A stretch of 54,571 nucleotides of DNA from a virus. Position numbers and translations under genes: made by a program. Shown here in pieces: positions 2,922 through 54,571 of the stretch. Location: positions 1 to 54,571 of IMG/VR virus record IMGVR_UViG_3300031586_000003, one strand, 5' to 3'. The stretch's first letter is position 1; each line of letters opens with the position of its first letter. The notes beneath the pieces were generated by a model. The model did not search any database, was not told the origin of the DNA, and saw only the letters and a program-made list of their open reading frames with translations.

Positions 2922-2999
2922 TAGTGGAGGTGGAGAGAATTGCACTCTCGTCCTCGGCAGACGCTTCGGCCTTTCTCCGAGTCGACCTTTTTCACCCCC
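2922..2999 (-). ncRNA. tRNA-like element resembling the tRNA-like domain of tmRNA
   Basis: Read on the minus strand from 2999. Acceptor stem GGGGGTG (2993-2999) pairs over 7 bp with CACCTCC (2926-2932), allowing one G-U. A T-arm follows: stem GAGAG/CTCTC (2945-2949 with 2933-2937) and 7-nt loop TGCAATT, near TTCRAnY. GGAC precedes the T-arm, as in E. coli tmRNA. The 5' side lacks a D-stem and contains GGTCGACTCGG, comparable with GGATTCGACGGG of tmRNA. An arm CTCGG/CCGAG stands where tmRNA helix P2 begins. The 3' end is ACTA, not ACCA. At about 78 nt it has no tag-encoding part. It sits in the 298-bp gap between the protease and capsid genes; the rest of that gap holds no gene. Confidence 0.55.
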
Positions 3000-5542: not shown

Positions 5543-5563
5543 TCTATTTCTCCTTTCTTATAA

Positions 5564-6138
5564 GGGGGCTGGCAGGATTTTTGCATACCTGCAATTCCCA
5601 GGATCACTGCATATCCATTTTCTTGATAGATAATGGATTACAAGGAAATACCCTCAACTGGAGTCCTCAGCATTTGCCATACCCCTCCAGCGAAGTACCT
5701 TAGCCCGTGATCAGGCTTGCCCATACGCTTCTCAAGAATAGATAATGCCTTTTTAGCCTTTTCCTTTTTGATTATTAGAAAAGGTAAAAGCGCTATCAAA
5801 ATTGTTTGCACTGCCTTTTGAGGATTAACAATCCAAAAATACATTGTTGTTTTGACTAATTTATTTTTGCTTCTGACTCTGACTAAACCTTTGCAAAATT
5901 TTTCACTCATCCAGTCAAGCATTTCTCTATTTGAATTGTAAATTTCCATTCGGCAACGAGGGTTATTTGGTCTCCTATAATGTTCTTGAATAACAATACT
6001 ACCCTCTCCGTCCAAAATGCCTGCGGTATAAGCCAATTCTGCTTCGGTTAGTTTTGGTAATGTGTATTCTTCGAACTCTCCAGCTTTTGGCATTATTCCT
6101 CCTCAAAAAGCGTATGGGGGTTTTTCAGTCACAGCCCC
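5564..6138. ncRNA. GGCAGGAT-type RNA element apparently interrupted by a LAGLIDADG gene
   Basis: GGGGGCTGGCAGGAT at 5564-5578 and CACAGCCCC at 6130-6138 match the two ends of the structured elements at 33903-34021 and 14952-15084. GGGGCT (5565-5570) can pair with AGCCCC (6133-6138), and GCAGG...CCTGC forms the conserved hairpin next to the stem. Everything between is the LAGLIDADG gene with its own ribosome site. GGGG near 6138 can also pair locally with CCCC, so the split-element reading is inference. Confidence 0.4.
5638..6093 (-). CDS. LAGLIDADG homing endonuclease, single motif
   Basis: 151 aa with the family signature in YTAGILDGEGSIVI (residues about 20-33), where the second acidic residue is the catalytic metal ligand. 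One motif means it should act as a homodimer. Downstream basic segments (RRPNNPRCRMEIYNSN, KGLVRVRSKNKL) fit DNA contact strands. It is free-standing rather than inside a coding gene, placed between small phage genes and inside the two halves of a repeated RNA element. It would promote its own spread by cutting phage genomes that lack it. Confidence 0.85.
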   Translation of the reverse strand: MPKAGEFEEYTLPKLTEAELAYTAGILDGEGSIVIQEHYRRPNNPRCRMEIYNSNREMLDWMSEKFCKGLVRVRSKNKLVKTTMYFWIVNPQKAVQTILIALLPFLIIKKEKAKKALSILEKRMGKPDHGLRYFAGGVWQMLRTPVEGISL

Positions 6139-14165: not shown

Positions 14166-14483
14166 TTATTTGCCTAGACAAATTTTACGTATTTTTTTTA
14201 AAGCGGCGTTTAGATGTTGATTAACCGCTTGTTGAATCATACCTAAATCTTGAGCAATTTTCTCTTCTGTCTTGCCCTCAAAAAATCTTTTTTGAACAAC
14301 TTTCTTTTGTTGGTCTGTTAGCTGATTTAAAGCTAGACGCAATAGAAGTCTTTGCCCGTCTGTAAAATCTGACGAAATTCCATTATCAAAAAAGACGTTA
14401 TCTTCTTCGGTAATGGTTTCTTCGATCGGAAGTTCGTTGCCTTCCTCGTCTATAATCGGTTCCAAATCCGAAAATCTTTTCAA
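14166..14483 (-). CDS. Sigma-70 region 4-like regulator, likely late-gene activator
   Basis: 105 aa from a TTG at 14483. The N-terminal 50 residues are acidic; the C-terminal half is a sigma-factor region 4 helix-turn-helix: LNQLTDQQKKVVQKRFFEGKTEEKIAQDLGMIQQAVNQHL, then ALKKIRK. It is the first gene upstream of the terminase, head and tail block, so a role as late transcription activator is likely. Its leader contains three TACTAG repeats, a possible operator. Confidence 0.75.
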   Translation of the reverse strand: MKRFSDLEPIIDEEGNELPIEETITEEDNVFFDNGISSDFTDGQRLLLRLALNQLTDQQKKVVQKRFFEGKTEEKIAQDLGMIQQAVNQHLNAALKKIRKICLGK

Positions 14484-14524
14484 TCATACCCCACTTTCCC
14501 TCCTTTTTATTTTTTTCCCTTTAC

Positions 14525-14554
14525 TACTAGCAATCCTACTAGTGTTTTACTAGT
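14525..14554. promoter_or_regulatory. Three TACTAG repeats, probable operator
   Basis: TACTAG occurs at 14525, 14537 and 14548, spaced 12 and 11 bases, about one helical turn; the last two extend to the palindrome ACTAGT. They lie between the leader of the sigma-like gene on the minus strand and a plus-strand promoter just beyond, so a repressor here could control either direction. Confidence 0.5.
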
Positions 14555-14561
14555 ATATCCC

Positions 14562-14588
14562 TTGACTTTTTCCAAAAATGACTATAAT
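14562..14588 (+). promoter_or_regulatory. Plus-strand sigma-70-like promoter
   Basis: TTGACT at 14562 and TATAAT at 14583 with a 15-bp spacer, shorter than ideal. The predicted start falls at about 14595, exactly the first base of the stem-closed RNA that follows. It is the only plus-strand promoter candidate I noticed in this otherwise leftward genome. Confidence 0.45.
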
Positions 14589-14594
14589 AAAAAC

Positions 14595-14660
14595 GGGAGT
14601 GCCAGGGAGAACATCCCATAAAACAAGACTGCTTGGCCGCGGACTTGTGGGCGCTCCCAT
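14595..14660. ncRNA. Compact multi-stem RNA candidate
   Basis: Outer stem GGGAGTGCC (14595-14603) with GGCGCTCCC (14650-14658), one G-U. Inside are GGGA/TCCC and ACAAG/CTTGT hairpins, giving a three-way junction. Plus-strand reading has a promoter ending at its first base. Minus-strand reading ends the outer stem with GTTTTTATT, so it would also work as an intrinsic terminator for the leftward RNA island. Direction unresolved. Confidence 0.5.
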
Positions 14661-14713
14661 TTTGTTGCTTATTTATACTATTAAATGGTTATATACACCA
14701 AAAAAAGTGTATT

Positions 14714-14770
14714 AGGCAGAAAGCAAGACGAACATAGAACAAAGTCATTGTTGTTATAGCATTTCTGCCT
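14714..14770. ncRNA. GCA/TAGC stem-closed RNA, copy 1
   Basis: Closing stem AGGCAGAAA (14714-14722) with TTTCTGCCT (14762-14770), perfect over 9 bp. GCA follows the 5' strand and TAGC plus one base precede the 3' strand, with 31 bases between. The same arrangement recurs at 14897, 26729, 26801 and 26875. Its inner GACGAACATA can also pair with TATGTTCGTC at 14853-14862. Confidence 0.6.
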
Positions 14771-14777
14771 ATATTTA

Positions 14778-14827
14778 ATAAAAAACGAACAGAAAAAAAT
14801 CTCCTTTTAAGATTTTCCGCTGTTCGT
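14778..14827 (-). terminator. Rho-independent terminator
   Basis: On the minus strand ACGAACAG (14820-14827) pairs with CTGTTCGT (14785-14792), with a further AAAATC/GATTTT inner helix, followed by TTTTTTATT. It would end a short RNA of about 85 nt starting at the promoter 14869-14896. Confidence 0.75.
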
Positions 14828-14868
14828 GTTAGTCTTTTTGTTAGTCGATGTTTATGTTCGTCAATTAC

Positions 14869-14896
14869 AGTATATACTAAAAATTTAAAGTGTCAA
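14869..14896 (-). promoter_or_regulatory. Leftward sigma-70 promoter of the RNA island
   Basis: TTGACA (complement of 14891-14896), 16-bp spacer, TATACT (complement of 14869-14874). The spacer ends TTTTTAGTA, close to the promoters at 27142 and 28147. Predicted start about 14862. There is no protein gene before the terminator 35 bases further on, so this promoter seems to serve a small RNA. Confidence 0.75.
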
Positions 14897-14948
14897 GGGG
14901 AAGAGCAAGTGGCTCTTAGATATACATTGACATTTTAGCGTCTTCCCC
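14897..14948. ncRNA. GCA/TAGC stem-closed RNA, copy 2
   Basis: Closing stem GGGGAAGA (14897-14904) with TCTTCCCC (14941-14948). GCA at 14905-14907; TAGC at 14936-14939 plus G; 28 bases between. Inner hairpin AGAGC/GCTCT is an alternative fold. It directly follows the next element on the minus strand and abuts the -35 box of the promoter at 14891. Confidence 0.6.
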
Positions 14949-14951
14949 TAA

Positions 14952-15084
14952 AGTGGCTCTGGCAGGATACCCCTCCCTGCGTCCCTATCATAGCTTTTCC
15001 AATCCGCTCAAGAAAAGTTTCTAGGTTCATCAAGATTCTGGATTGGTTTCTTTCCCAAGCATCCTAGAATGCCACAGAGCCACT
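14952..15084 (-). ncRNA. GGCAGGAT-type structured RNA with its own promoter
   Basis: Outer stem AGTGGCTCT/AGAGCCACT (14952-14960, 15076-15084), continued by TGGCA/TGCCA around a 2-base bulge. A GCAGG...CCTGC hairpin (AT at the loop start) abuts it. Inside, CCAATCC/GGATTGG, CTTTTC/GAAAAG and TTCTAGG/CCTAGAA can form, partly exclusive of each other. The leftward promoter at 15088-15115 places the start at 15081-15083, the first base of the outer stem. No open frame. Matches the element at 33903-34021 at both ends. Confidence 0.6.
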
Positions 15085-15087
15085 ATA

Positions 15088-15115
15088 ATGATAGCAAATA
15101 AATTTAGAATGTCAA
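15088..15115 (-). promoter_or_regulatory. Leftward promoter for the structured RNA
   Basis: TTGACA (complement of 15110-15115), 16-bp spacer, TATCAT (complement of 15088-15093). The -35 box overlaps the stop of the gene at 15112-15468. The predicted start coincides with the closing stem of the RNA. Confidence 0.65.
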
Positions 15116-22355: not shown

Positions 22356-22508
22356 TTATTTATCTTCAATGAAATCGCTACCAAAAGCATTTTTAGTATC
22401 TTCTCGGTAAATTCGTTGCTTTATATTTCTGTAAAAAAATCGTCCTCCGTCTCTTTGAGCTGCCTTGTTTAATCCTTTTAACGTCTTTCTTCTTTGTTCT
22501 TTATTCAT
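22356..22508 (-). CDS. Tiny basic protein, 50 aa
   Basis: MNKEQRRKTLKGLNKAAQRDGGRFFYRNIKQRIYRED..., ribosome site GGAGGGGGAA. Ends overlapping the region upstream of the next gene. Basic helix, possibly nucleic-acid binding; no family. Confidence 0.5.
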   Translation of the reverse strand: MNKEQRRKTLKGLNKAAQRDGGRFFYRNIKQRIYREDTKNAFGSDFIEDK

Positions 22509-22524: not shown

Positions 22525-22599
22525 GCCCGCCCTGGCAGGATTACAGCGCGCTTGTCACCTTACGTCCTGCCCGCAAATGAGGTGGCGTACAGAGCGGGC
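22525..22599 (-). ncRNA. GGCAGGAT-type leader RNA with a pseudoknot
   Basis: Closing stem GCCCGC (22525-22530) with GCGGGC (22594-22599). Inside, GGCAGGA (22534-22540) pairs with TCCTGCC (22565-22571), and CACCT (22556-22560) pairs with AGGTG (22580-22584). These cross, an H-type pseudoknot. It fills the leader before the 50-aa gene. The GGCAGGAT start and ACAG before the closing strand match the elements at 14952 and 33903. Confidence 0.55.
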
Positions 22600-33692: not shown

Positions 33693-33878
33693 TTAAATTG
33701 GTTCAAGAAACGGAAAATATTCTTGTCTCGCTTCTTCATAAATGACTTTTTTCTCTTCCCTTTTTGTTGCATCTGTATTGCTAAAGAGAATAATTGTATT
33801 TGGAAATTCTGGATTATAAGCAGTTAGTGATAATTTTATTTCTTCTTTCATTAATTTCATCCCATCTCTTTTAGACAT
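33693..33878 (-). CDS. Hypothetical protein, 61 aa
   Basis: MSKRDGMKLMKEEIKLSLTAYNPEFPNTIILFSN..., charged helix and a beta stretch. Ribosome site GGAGGAG. Preceded by the RNA leader at 33903-34021. Confidence 0.5.
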   Translation of the reverse strand: MSKRDGMKLMKEEIKLSLTAYNPEFPNTIILFSNTDATKREEKKVIYEEARQEYFPFLEPI

Positions 33879-33902: not shown

Positions 33903-34021
33903 GGGGCTGGCAGGATTCCCCACCCTGCACCGACTTGGTGCGTAGTAGTGGACTACACCAAGAAGAAGCCTCGCTTGCAGCTATTACCCCTCCCTACCTG
34001 GCGCCAGAACGCCACAGCCCC
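33903..34021 (-). ncRNA. GGCAGGAT-type structured leader RNA
   Basis: Outer stem GGGGCT (33903-33908) with AGCCCC (34016-34021), followed by GGC/GCC. Adjacent hairpin GCAGG...CCTGC with AT at the loop start, as in 14952-15084. A long variable arm has CTTGGT/ACCAAG and GTAGT/ACTAC. The 3' motif CCAGAACGCCACAG matches CCTAGAATGCCACAG of the other element. It lies in the 152-bp leader of the next gene. Confidence 0.6.
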
Positions 34022-54292: not shown

Positions 54293-54571
54293 TTAGGCAC
54301 TAATCAAAGCCAAATATCTGATTCCAACTGTGGGAATGTAAACCCTTAAACCAGCATAACCAGTTACCGAACTTATATCAGTGTCAATGAATTTCCCACT
54401 ACCAACGGTTAGATTAGTTCCAAGCGTAAGGAAATTTCCAGTAGTATCTATAGTAGATGCAACCCCAGTTCCTCCTCCGTTGCAGTAAATAAACGATGTG
54501 GCAGTTCCAAGACTTGCACCAGTAGCCGCAGACAATTCCAGTTCTAATGGTGCATAGTTTCCTTGAGTAGT
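54293..54571 (-). CDS. Virion structural protein, C-terminal part (continues at 1-571)
   Basis: The C-terminal half of the 240-aa protein whose start is at 571 on the other edge. It reads ...TIDTTGNFLTLGTNLTVGSGKF and ends RYLALISA. Reading in frame across the 127-base overlap supports the circular genome. It is not a complete gene within the window alone. Confidence 0.75.
   Translation of the reverse strand, partial: TTQGNYAPLELELSAATGASLGTATSFIYCNGGGTGVASTIDTTGNFLTLGTNLTVGSGKFIDTDISSVTGYAGLRVYIPTVGIRYLALISA
54445..54571. repeat. Right copy of 127-bp exact terminal repeat
   Basis: Same 127 bases as 1-127. Remove one copy to close the circle. Confidence 0.95.

Follow-up and report, generated by a model that had tools for sequence, protein, structure and literature searches.

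Two structured RNA elements of a virus genome, e1 and e3, and more loosely a third one, e2, can be assigned on the basis of their sequence to a putative family of tRNA-like phage RNAs, in which the anticodon arm appears to be replaced by a variable domain. The family has a covarying structure and homology to the T-arm of tRNA, it is distributed among many unrelated uncultivated phages, and its members are often found in leader positions. As best explanation for e1 and e3, and loosely for e2, we tentatively propose that they act mostly in cis as leaders raising initiation, a reading to which we give somewhat less than an even chance. On these data, phages may steer the expression of their own messages by means of tRNA-shaped leaders.

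Three elements on the minus strand share their ends

The window, i.e. the whole stretch of 54,571 bases of the virus record that was analysed, carries nearly all of its genes on the minus strand. A sequence-only reading of this DNA had reported three related elements, and e1 (14952..15084), e2 (22525..22599) and e3 (33903..34021) are indeed present at these coordinates. However, it had read them on the plus strand, which is wrong. Minus is the transcribed strand because the neighbouring genes lie on it, because the 3' ends of e2 and e3 are located 0-13 nt ahead of minus-strand Shine-Dalgarno sequences, because the e1 promoter points that way and because the T-loops of relatives read TTCGAAT only on this strand. 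The plus-strand reading yields a good fold, but lacks the T-loop orientation, the Shine-Dalgarno sequences and the gene context, and was discarded.

On the minus strand, all copies have the block ATCCTGCCAG in common (14959-14968, 22532-22541 and 33907-33916), and a fourth copy is located at 5569-5578. Thus, the three copies listed originally are all real, but the fourth at 5.6 kb, which appears to belong to another family, manA, had been missed. Elements e1 to e3 are laid out as closing stem, CTG-T(G/A), middle and GCAGG-loop-(A/T)AT-CCTGC, directly followed by the 3' strand of the stem. The GCAGG/CCTGC helix had been described as lying inside the closing stem, and the hairpin adjoins a closing stem of 7-10 bp in all three elements. 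The sequence said to be common to the first and third element was likewise recovered in e1 and e3 (CCTAGAATGCCACAG / CCAGAACGCCACAG). What had been taken for a "GGCAGGAT hairpin" corresponds, once reverse-complemented, to a tRNA T-arm together with the 3' strand of the acceptor.

A fixed descriptor comprising ATCCTGCCAG, the 5-bp hairpin, a 7-bp closing stem and T matched the window exactly three times, always on the minus strand, and had no match in 200 first-order Markov controls. When the hairpin sequence was left free, six matches including e1 to e3 were obtained in the window as compared to 0-2 in each of 10 controls. The closing stems are wholly different among the three elements (AGTGGCTCTG, GCCCGCTCTG and GGGGCTG), yet all of them pair, which is the pattern expected from selection on RNA pairing. 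A 7-bp acceptor-like stem followed by U8 and a purine at position 9 is present in e1 and e3 (TG), in e2 (TA) and in 12 of 14 members of an independently found set (see below), the stem often being extended to 9-13 bp. The window copies have neither a D-loop nor a T-loop of the canonical kind, and their 3' hairpin loops are GUGGGGAAU in e3, GAGGGGUAU in e1 and 26 nt in e2: a 5-bp T-arm with a 7-nt UUCRANN loop does not occur in them, but is present in type A relatives including G004, which carries the e1 orthologue. ARAGORN detected no tRNA genes in the window; with introns allowed or thresholds lowered, it returned hundreds of matches of low specificity, which were uninformative. Close to each end of the record (1-100 and 54472-54571), the same stretch of ~70 bases occurs, owing either to terminal redundancy or to a gene repeat of internal origin.

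The family recurs in other phages and its skeleton covaries

A strict pattern of the 3' hairpin (GCAGGGNNGGGGNATCCTGCCAG) had zero matches in IMG/VR. A loose pattern of this hairpin returned mostly true tRNAs and chance matches from IMG/VR, the excess of true tRNAs arising because GCAGG-N-AATCCTGC-CAG has the look of a T-arm plus acceptor strand. The loose scan also provided the resemblance to the T-arm and the manA relative L018, a related phage. Using a pattern on both ends followed by stem filters, we obtained about a dozen further members. Type A is characterized by the T-loop TTCRAAT and the D-arm GCGTT-CTGGYGAA-AACGC, and type B, to which e3 belongs, by the loop GTGGGGAAT and by TGGCGTTCTGGCGYYAGGTA. 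Three of the contigs with members (L213, L245 and L282) have no proteins in common with the window, and therefore the RNA is shared beyond gene content.

As an independent test, we employed a pattern fixing only the D-arm of type A (TGGCGTTCTGGYGAAAACG). It matched 20 IMG/VR contigs, 16 of which are distinct, while 1-2 were estimated by chance. A GT[TC]C[AG]AAT T-loop is found at a distance of at most 260 nt in 14 of the 16 distinct contigs (about 1.4% expected for each). The closing strands pair at 7/7 positions in 12 of these 14 when combined with their own partner, versus 3.5/7 across sequences, and the stems are mostly of different sequence. Because the middle domain cannot be aligned, pairs were counted on the columns of the skeleton rather than with a covariance model. 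In the type A skeleton, 94.6% of the cells are paired as compared to 66% in shuffled sequences, and in 10 of 12 pairs both partners have changed. The covariation score amounts to 0.775 versus 0.22 for shuffled sequences (0/500 shuffles) and drops to 0.12-0.19 when slid. Both checks that the sequence-only reading had called for thus came out in its favour, i.e. similar elements exist in other phage genomes and covariation in the family skeleton is strong. For type B the covariation evidence is weaker, comprising five or six sequences in whose hairpins only G-C/G-U changes and single compensations occur (GTAGG/CCTAC in L282, ACAGG/CCTGT in L213).

Family elements are 67 to 244 nt long, and their closing stems of 7 to 13 bp reach beyond a tRNA acceptor. 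The smallest members, L312 (67 nt) and L326 (72 nt), are tRNA-sized and possess no normal anticodon loop. In members, an anticodon arm with a 7-nt loop is replaced by the variable domain, and ARAGORN did not call them as tRNAs except for L326 (undefined anticodon). Most members also lack a 3' CCA downstream of the closing stem; CCA is found only at L316 and ACCA at L322.

In INPHARED, the best blastn matches of type A copies were the 3' ends of tRNA genes, and no similar phage was detected outside tRNA genes. Among 84,980 species genomes (GTDB) there was no true member, the four matches of a looser pattern being without stem or T-arm. Rfam contained no true match for e1 to e3 or for seven loci with other members, and in the open-access literature we found no description of such a phage RNA family. 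In addition, we observed tRNA-like phage RNAs (L083 1055-1208, L102 3970-4120, L106 633-796, L116 6499-6698) that have canonical T-arms but whose D-arms differ and whose inserts are long. A second T-arm is found internally in L106 and G004. It seems that the class of tRNA-like RNAs is wider than the family described here.

Genomic context of e3, e2 and e1

Element e3 (33903..34021, minus strand) is a tRNA-like RNA of type B. Its closing stem GGGGCUG/CAGCCCC (34015-34021 with 33903-33909) encloses the junction UG, the 5' hairpin UGGCGU-UCUG-GCGCCA (minus strand, about 33999-34014), the variable middle, which comes next, and the 3' hairpin GCAGG-GUGGGGAAU-CCUGC (33910-33928, minus strand). Folding gave z = -3.08 versus shuffles, and base-pair probabilities are 0.88-1.0 in the closing stem and 0.73-0.76 in the 3' hairpin. 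Homologues were found in L213, L245, L257 and L282; a blastn search of INPHARED with e3 returned chance matches only. The element leads a 61-aa gene (33693..33878, minus strand), the Shine-Dalgarno sequence of which begins 13 nt past the element. In the relative L193, e3 and the 61-aa gene are swapped for a DNA methylase-like ORF (identity by eye), while the flanks are kept.

Element e2 (75 nt; 22525..22599, minus strand) is a weaker member, with the closing stem GCCCGCUCUG/CAGGGCGGGC, the junction UA and a hairpin GCAGG-(26 nt)-CCUGC on the same strand within this interval, into the loop of which a CACCU/AGGUG pseudoknot is possible. It leads a 50-aa gene (22356..22508, minus strand), whose Shine-Dalgarno sequence follows directly after the element. 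The proposed family of three holds insofar as e1 and e3 belong together, but e2 is connected loosely: it is devoid of the 5' motif common to e1 and e3, and we found no homologue of its own. It may be a family member or a convergent element.

Element e1 (14952..15084, minus strand) comprises the closing stem AGUGGCUCUG/CAGAGCCACU, the 5' region UGGCAUUCUAGG and the 3' hairpin GCAGG-GAGGGGUAU-CCUGC (14962-14980, minus strand). It is preceded by a sigma-70-like promoter (15088..15115, minus strand; TTGACA 15110-15115, 16 nt, TATCAT 15088-15093), and the predicted transcription start is the first base of the closing stem. The view that the elements are structured RNAs was borne out, as was the placement of some of them in the leaders of small, mutually unrelated genes and of one downstream of a promoter of its own. 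Downstream of the e1 locus, a sigma-70 region 4-like protein is encoded (14166..14483, minus strand; Pfam Sigma70_r4, 6.5e-12), an orthologue of which comes after the e1 locus in G004.

Relatives including G004 were obtained with the capsid protein as bait, and few with the helicase and sigma-like proteins. Positional orthologues of e1 with near-identical ends are present in G004 (L177:8903-9073:-) and at L257:762-893, and the layout of promoter and element is repeated in L177 and L257. At the e1 position, G004 reads GTGGCTCTG-TGGCGTTTGG ... GTAGG-TTCGAAT-CCTGC-CAGAGCC with a canonical tRNA T-loop (RNA: GUAGG-UUCGAAU-CCUGC). Hence, the same locus carries a canonical T-arm (type A) in G004 and a type B hairpin in L257, and e1 itself is a divergent copy. 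All of them begin at a sigma-70-like promoter, and only in L257 does an ORF adjoin the element. Besides e1, the noncoding locus of 628 nt ahead of the sigma-70 region 4-like gene (14484-15111) harbours another promoter (TTGACA/TATACT near 14880), a hairpin plus T-run near 14780 that looks like a terminator, and further inverted repeats; the locus is syntenic in G004.

A truncated manA relative and a tmRNA-like element in the same genome

The fourth copy of ATCCUGCCAG is part of e4 (5560..5718, minus strand), a 5'-truncated relative of Rfam manA (RF01745). It keeps the 3' hairpin GCAGG-UAUGCAAAAAU-CCUGC; the closing 5' strand and UGACUGAAU are lost. The score with the manA covariance model is low (18.0 bits, E 0.0089, local scan) because the end of ORF 5638-6093 has taken the place of its 5' part. 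Intact manA-like relatives, which are 81% identical, score 50.0 bits in L018/L128 and 50.9 bits in L257, and a copy in L132 with the compensatory GUAGG/CCUAC reaches 38.3 bits; these scores correspond to E 2.8e-12 to 7.8e-9 and are below the Rfam gathering threshold of 55.2. The intact relatives retain the manA core UGACUGAAUAA ... UAAGGU ... GGUAUGCAAWAAUCC. The divergent manA-like RNAs of this phage group are located at 5560-5718 (-) of the window, L128 6455-6641, L257 6743-6919 and L132 740-934, and the manA-type RNA is conserved while the genes downstream vary between relatives.

A separate tRNA-like element upstream of the capsid gene (2926..2999, minus strand) resembles the tRNA-like domain of tmRNA without the mRNA part. 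It was seen in a scan for canonical T-arms and reads GGGGGUG ... GAGAG-UGCAAUU-CUCUC-CACCUCC. It scores 43 bits with the tmRNA covariance model (gathering 47), and together with its flanking noncoding stretch it is conserved to 88.7% across 230 nt in the relative L128. An element of the same kind in the unrelated contig L207 (1893-1991) scores 49.1 bits, above gathering, and ends with ACCA.

Position relative to genes and possible function

A Shine-Dalgarno sequence plus start codon is located within 45 nt of the 3' end in 12 of 27 members, versus 7.6% of random sites and 21.5% of sites directly after ORF stops. The other 15, including e1 and the elements of G004, L213 and L245, have no clear Shine-Dalgarno sequence and start codon adjacent. 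An upstream stop codon precedes the element by 3-11 nt in e2, e3, L233, L278, L282, L083 and L102. Most of the genes downstream are small, have no known function and are unrelated to each other. L217 (around 580-615) represents an odd leader site, in that its type A element comes right after a hairpin plus T-run resembling an intrinsic terminator.

We favour a cis-acting leader that stimulates initiation because the layout is like that of yjdF, i.e. a tRNA-like fold, mostly without CCA, with a Shine-Dalgarno sequence often directly after it. In such a leader, the acceptor-like closing stem (7-13 bp) would stack on the T-arm, and the U-R linker (U8-R9 of tRNA) would lead into the D-arm, whose GG-containing loop could dock on the T-loop to form an elbow. 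The variable domain of 0-170 nt would take the place of the anticodon arm, the 3' CCA being absent in most. In type B, the D/T loop pair would be swapped for a matched pair consisting of the UGGCGU-UCUG-GCGYYA hairpin and a GGGGA-type loop. The outcome would be a rigid tRNA-shaped leader, acting mostly in cis, about 0-15 nt ahead of the Shine-Dalgarno sequence, whose elbow may contact the ribosome and thereby increase initiation on the next cistron; free-standing copies such as e1 would represent a variant use. By analogy with studied cases, loop docking, ribosome contact and a translational effect appear plausible: in vitro, cis-tRNAs ahead of a Shine-Dalgarno sequence increased translation by a factor of 2 to 6.3, the replacement of ACCA with UAAU having little effect, and the yjdF aptamer, which is tRNA-like when activated, bound ribosomes at nanomolar Kd (PMC9142559). 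The yjdF riboswitch binds azaaromatic ligands, and its T-loop is paired with the Shine-Dalgarno sequence in the off state; visual inspection of the 3' hairpin loops in e1 and e3 revealed no anti-Shine-Dalgarno sequence.

A more far-reaching idea, which we regard as speculative and rather unlikely, is that uncultivated phages possess modular, exchangeable tRNA-shaped leaders that give their own mRNAs privileged access to host ribosomes. Leaders with the canonical D/T elbow and leaders with a substitute pair of loops would be alternatives at the same locus and, with co-occurring manA-type leaders and tmRNAs reduced to the tRNA-like domain, these leaders would constitute a general device for translational take-over.

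Several members fill an intercistronic gap, with the stop codon 3-11 nt upstream, and could accordingly serve as punctuation, host RNase P and/or tRNase Z recognizing elbow and stacked stem and cutting the polycistronic RNA at the element to generate defined, stable mRNA 5' ends, as tRNAs do in mitochondria. A T-arm with a coaxial stem is what RNase P/Z are known to recognize. However, closing stems of 9-13 bp would put the cut within a helix, CCA is missing in most copies, and the elements e1, G004 and L257 already begin at a promoter, so that no processing is needed there. We therefore consider this reading unlikely. The e1-type promoters, which place the start at the closing stem, would also suit a 5' stability clamp, i.e. 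a structured transcript end that blocks 5'-dependent decay and for which the tRNA-like shape is merely a convenient stable fold. Long GC-rich stems and unrelated middle arms fit this idea as well, but a plain hairpin would suffice, and the fact that the D- and T-loops are conserved in sequence and that the A/B loop types come in pairs argues for a particular tertiary structure, leaving the clamp a distinctly doubtful explanation.

It is improbable that the elements are ligand-sensing riboswitches on a tRNA-like scaffold, in which the variable middle would serve as aptamer or expression platform. Their leader position and the precedent of yjdF are compatible with this, but the middle domains are unconserved between members, so that no shared ligand pocket is visible, the downstream genes are unrelated, and Rfam gave no match to yjdF or another riboswitch. 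Free-standing, trans-acting tRNA mimics or decoys, directed for instance against host tRNA-processing enzymes or tRNA-directed anti-phage nucleases, would account for the own promoter of e1 and its orthologues, for the location of L099 and L116 directly after tRNA genes and for the 15 of 27 members not beside a clear Shine-Dalgarno sequence and start; we judge this improbable too, as 12 of 27 are tightly ahead of a Shine-Dalgarno sequence and the anticodon loop, the target of anticodon nucleases, is absent. Decayed or intron-bearing ordinary tRNA genes are very improbable despite the tRNA-derived T- and D-arms and the intron-containing matches that ARAGORN gives on some copies when introns are allowed, since the acceptor stem and loops covary strongly, most copies lack CCA, two tRNA-sized members have no normal anticodon loop and the elements recur as leaders across unrelated phages.

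Comparison with known RNAs

Type A elements share with tRNA (RF00005) the 7-bp acceptor-like stem, U8, purine 9, a D-arm with GG and a UUCRAAU T-arm abutting the acceptor. Unlike tRNA, the family has no decoding anticodon arm, mostly no CCA, a stem often of 9-13 bp and lengths of 67-244 nt. A short descriptor consisting of the D-arm 19-mer and the abutting T-arm permits annotation of these RNAs, which tRNA finders mostly skip. The tRNA-like domain of tmRNA (RF00023) resembles e1 to e3 in having tRNA-like ends and no anticodon arm; they differ from tmRNA in that a D-arm-like hairpin is present while reading frame and pseudoknots are absent, and they had no match with the RF00023 model in the window scan, which listed 2922-2999 alone. 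Bacterial Y RNAs (YrlA) are non-coding RNAs that combine a tRNA-like module with a terminal clamp stem. Module and clamp stem are alike in the family, in which a Ro-type binding motif was not seen. The wcaG RNA from cyanophages (RF01761) was considered, and showed no resemblance by eye.

manA (RF01745) has been described in sequences of marine, gamma-proteobacterial and cyanophage origin (PMC2864571). Like e1 to e3, it has a UG junction and a closing stem, to which a final hairpin with the end AAUCC is directly adjacent, and it occurs in phage leaders ahead of unrelated genes. In contrast, e1 to e3 are without the manA core (UGACUGAAUAA, UAAGGU, internal stems) and had no match with the RF01745 model, the window Rfam scan listing the e4 site alone. 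manA and e1 to e3 share only closing stem, UG and abutting hairpin, and we do not claim homology. Through the putative manA homologues described above, an orphan leader of marine cyanophages is connected with phages of quite another group, which could help to decode manA.

The yjdF riboswitch (RF01764; PMC9142559) resembles the family in being a tRNA-like (four-helix) mRNA leader ahead of a Shine-Dalgarno sequence, with D- and T-loop-like loops, and tRNAs grafted in its position raise translation constitutively (PMC9142559). The family differs by the lack of a conserved purine-rich J1/2 ligand pocket, by its variable middle, its unrelated downstream genes and its restriction to phages, and the RF01764 model had no match in the window (E up to 10) or in 7 member-bearing loci (E up to 3). 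Few examples of tRNA-like RNAs within mRNA leaders are known (yjdF and tRNAs grafted in vitro). If our proposal is true, phages would make large-scale use of the tRNA fold in cis, and recruitment of ribosomes by tRNA-shaped leaders would be a testable prediction. While tRNA-like leaders as a kind are already known, a recurrent family of them in phages was found neither in Rfam nor in the open-access literature.
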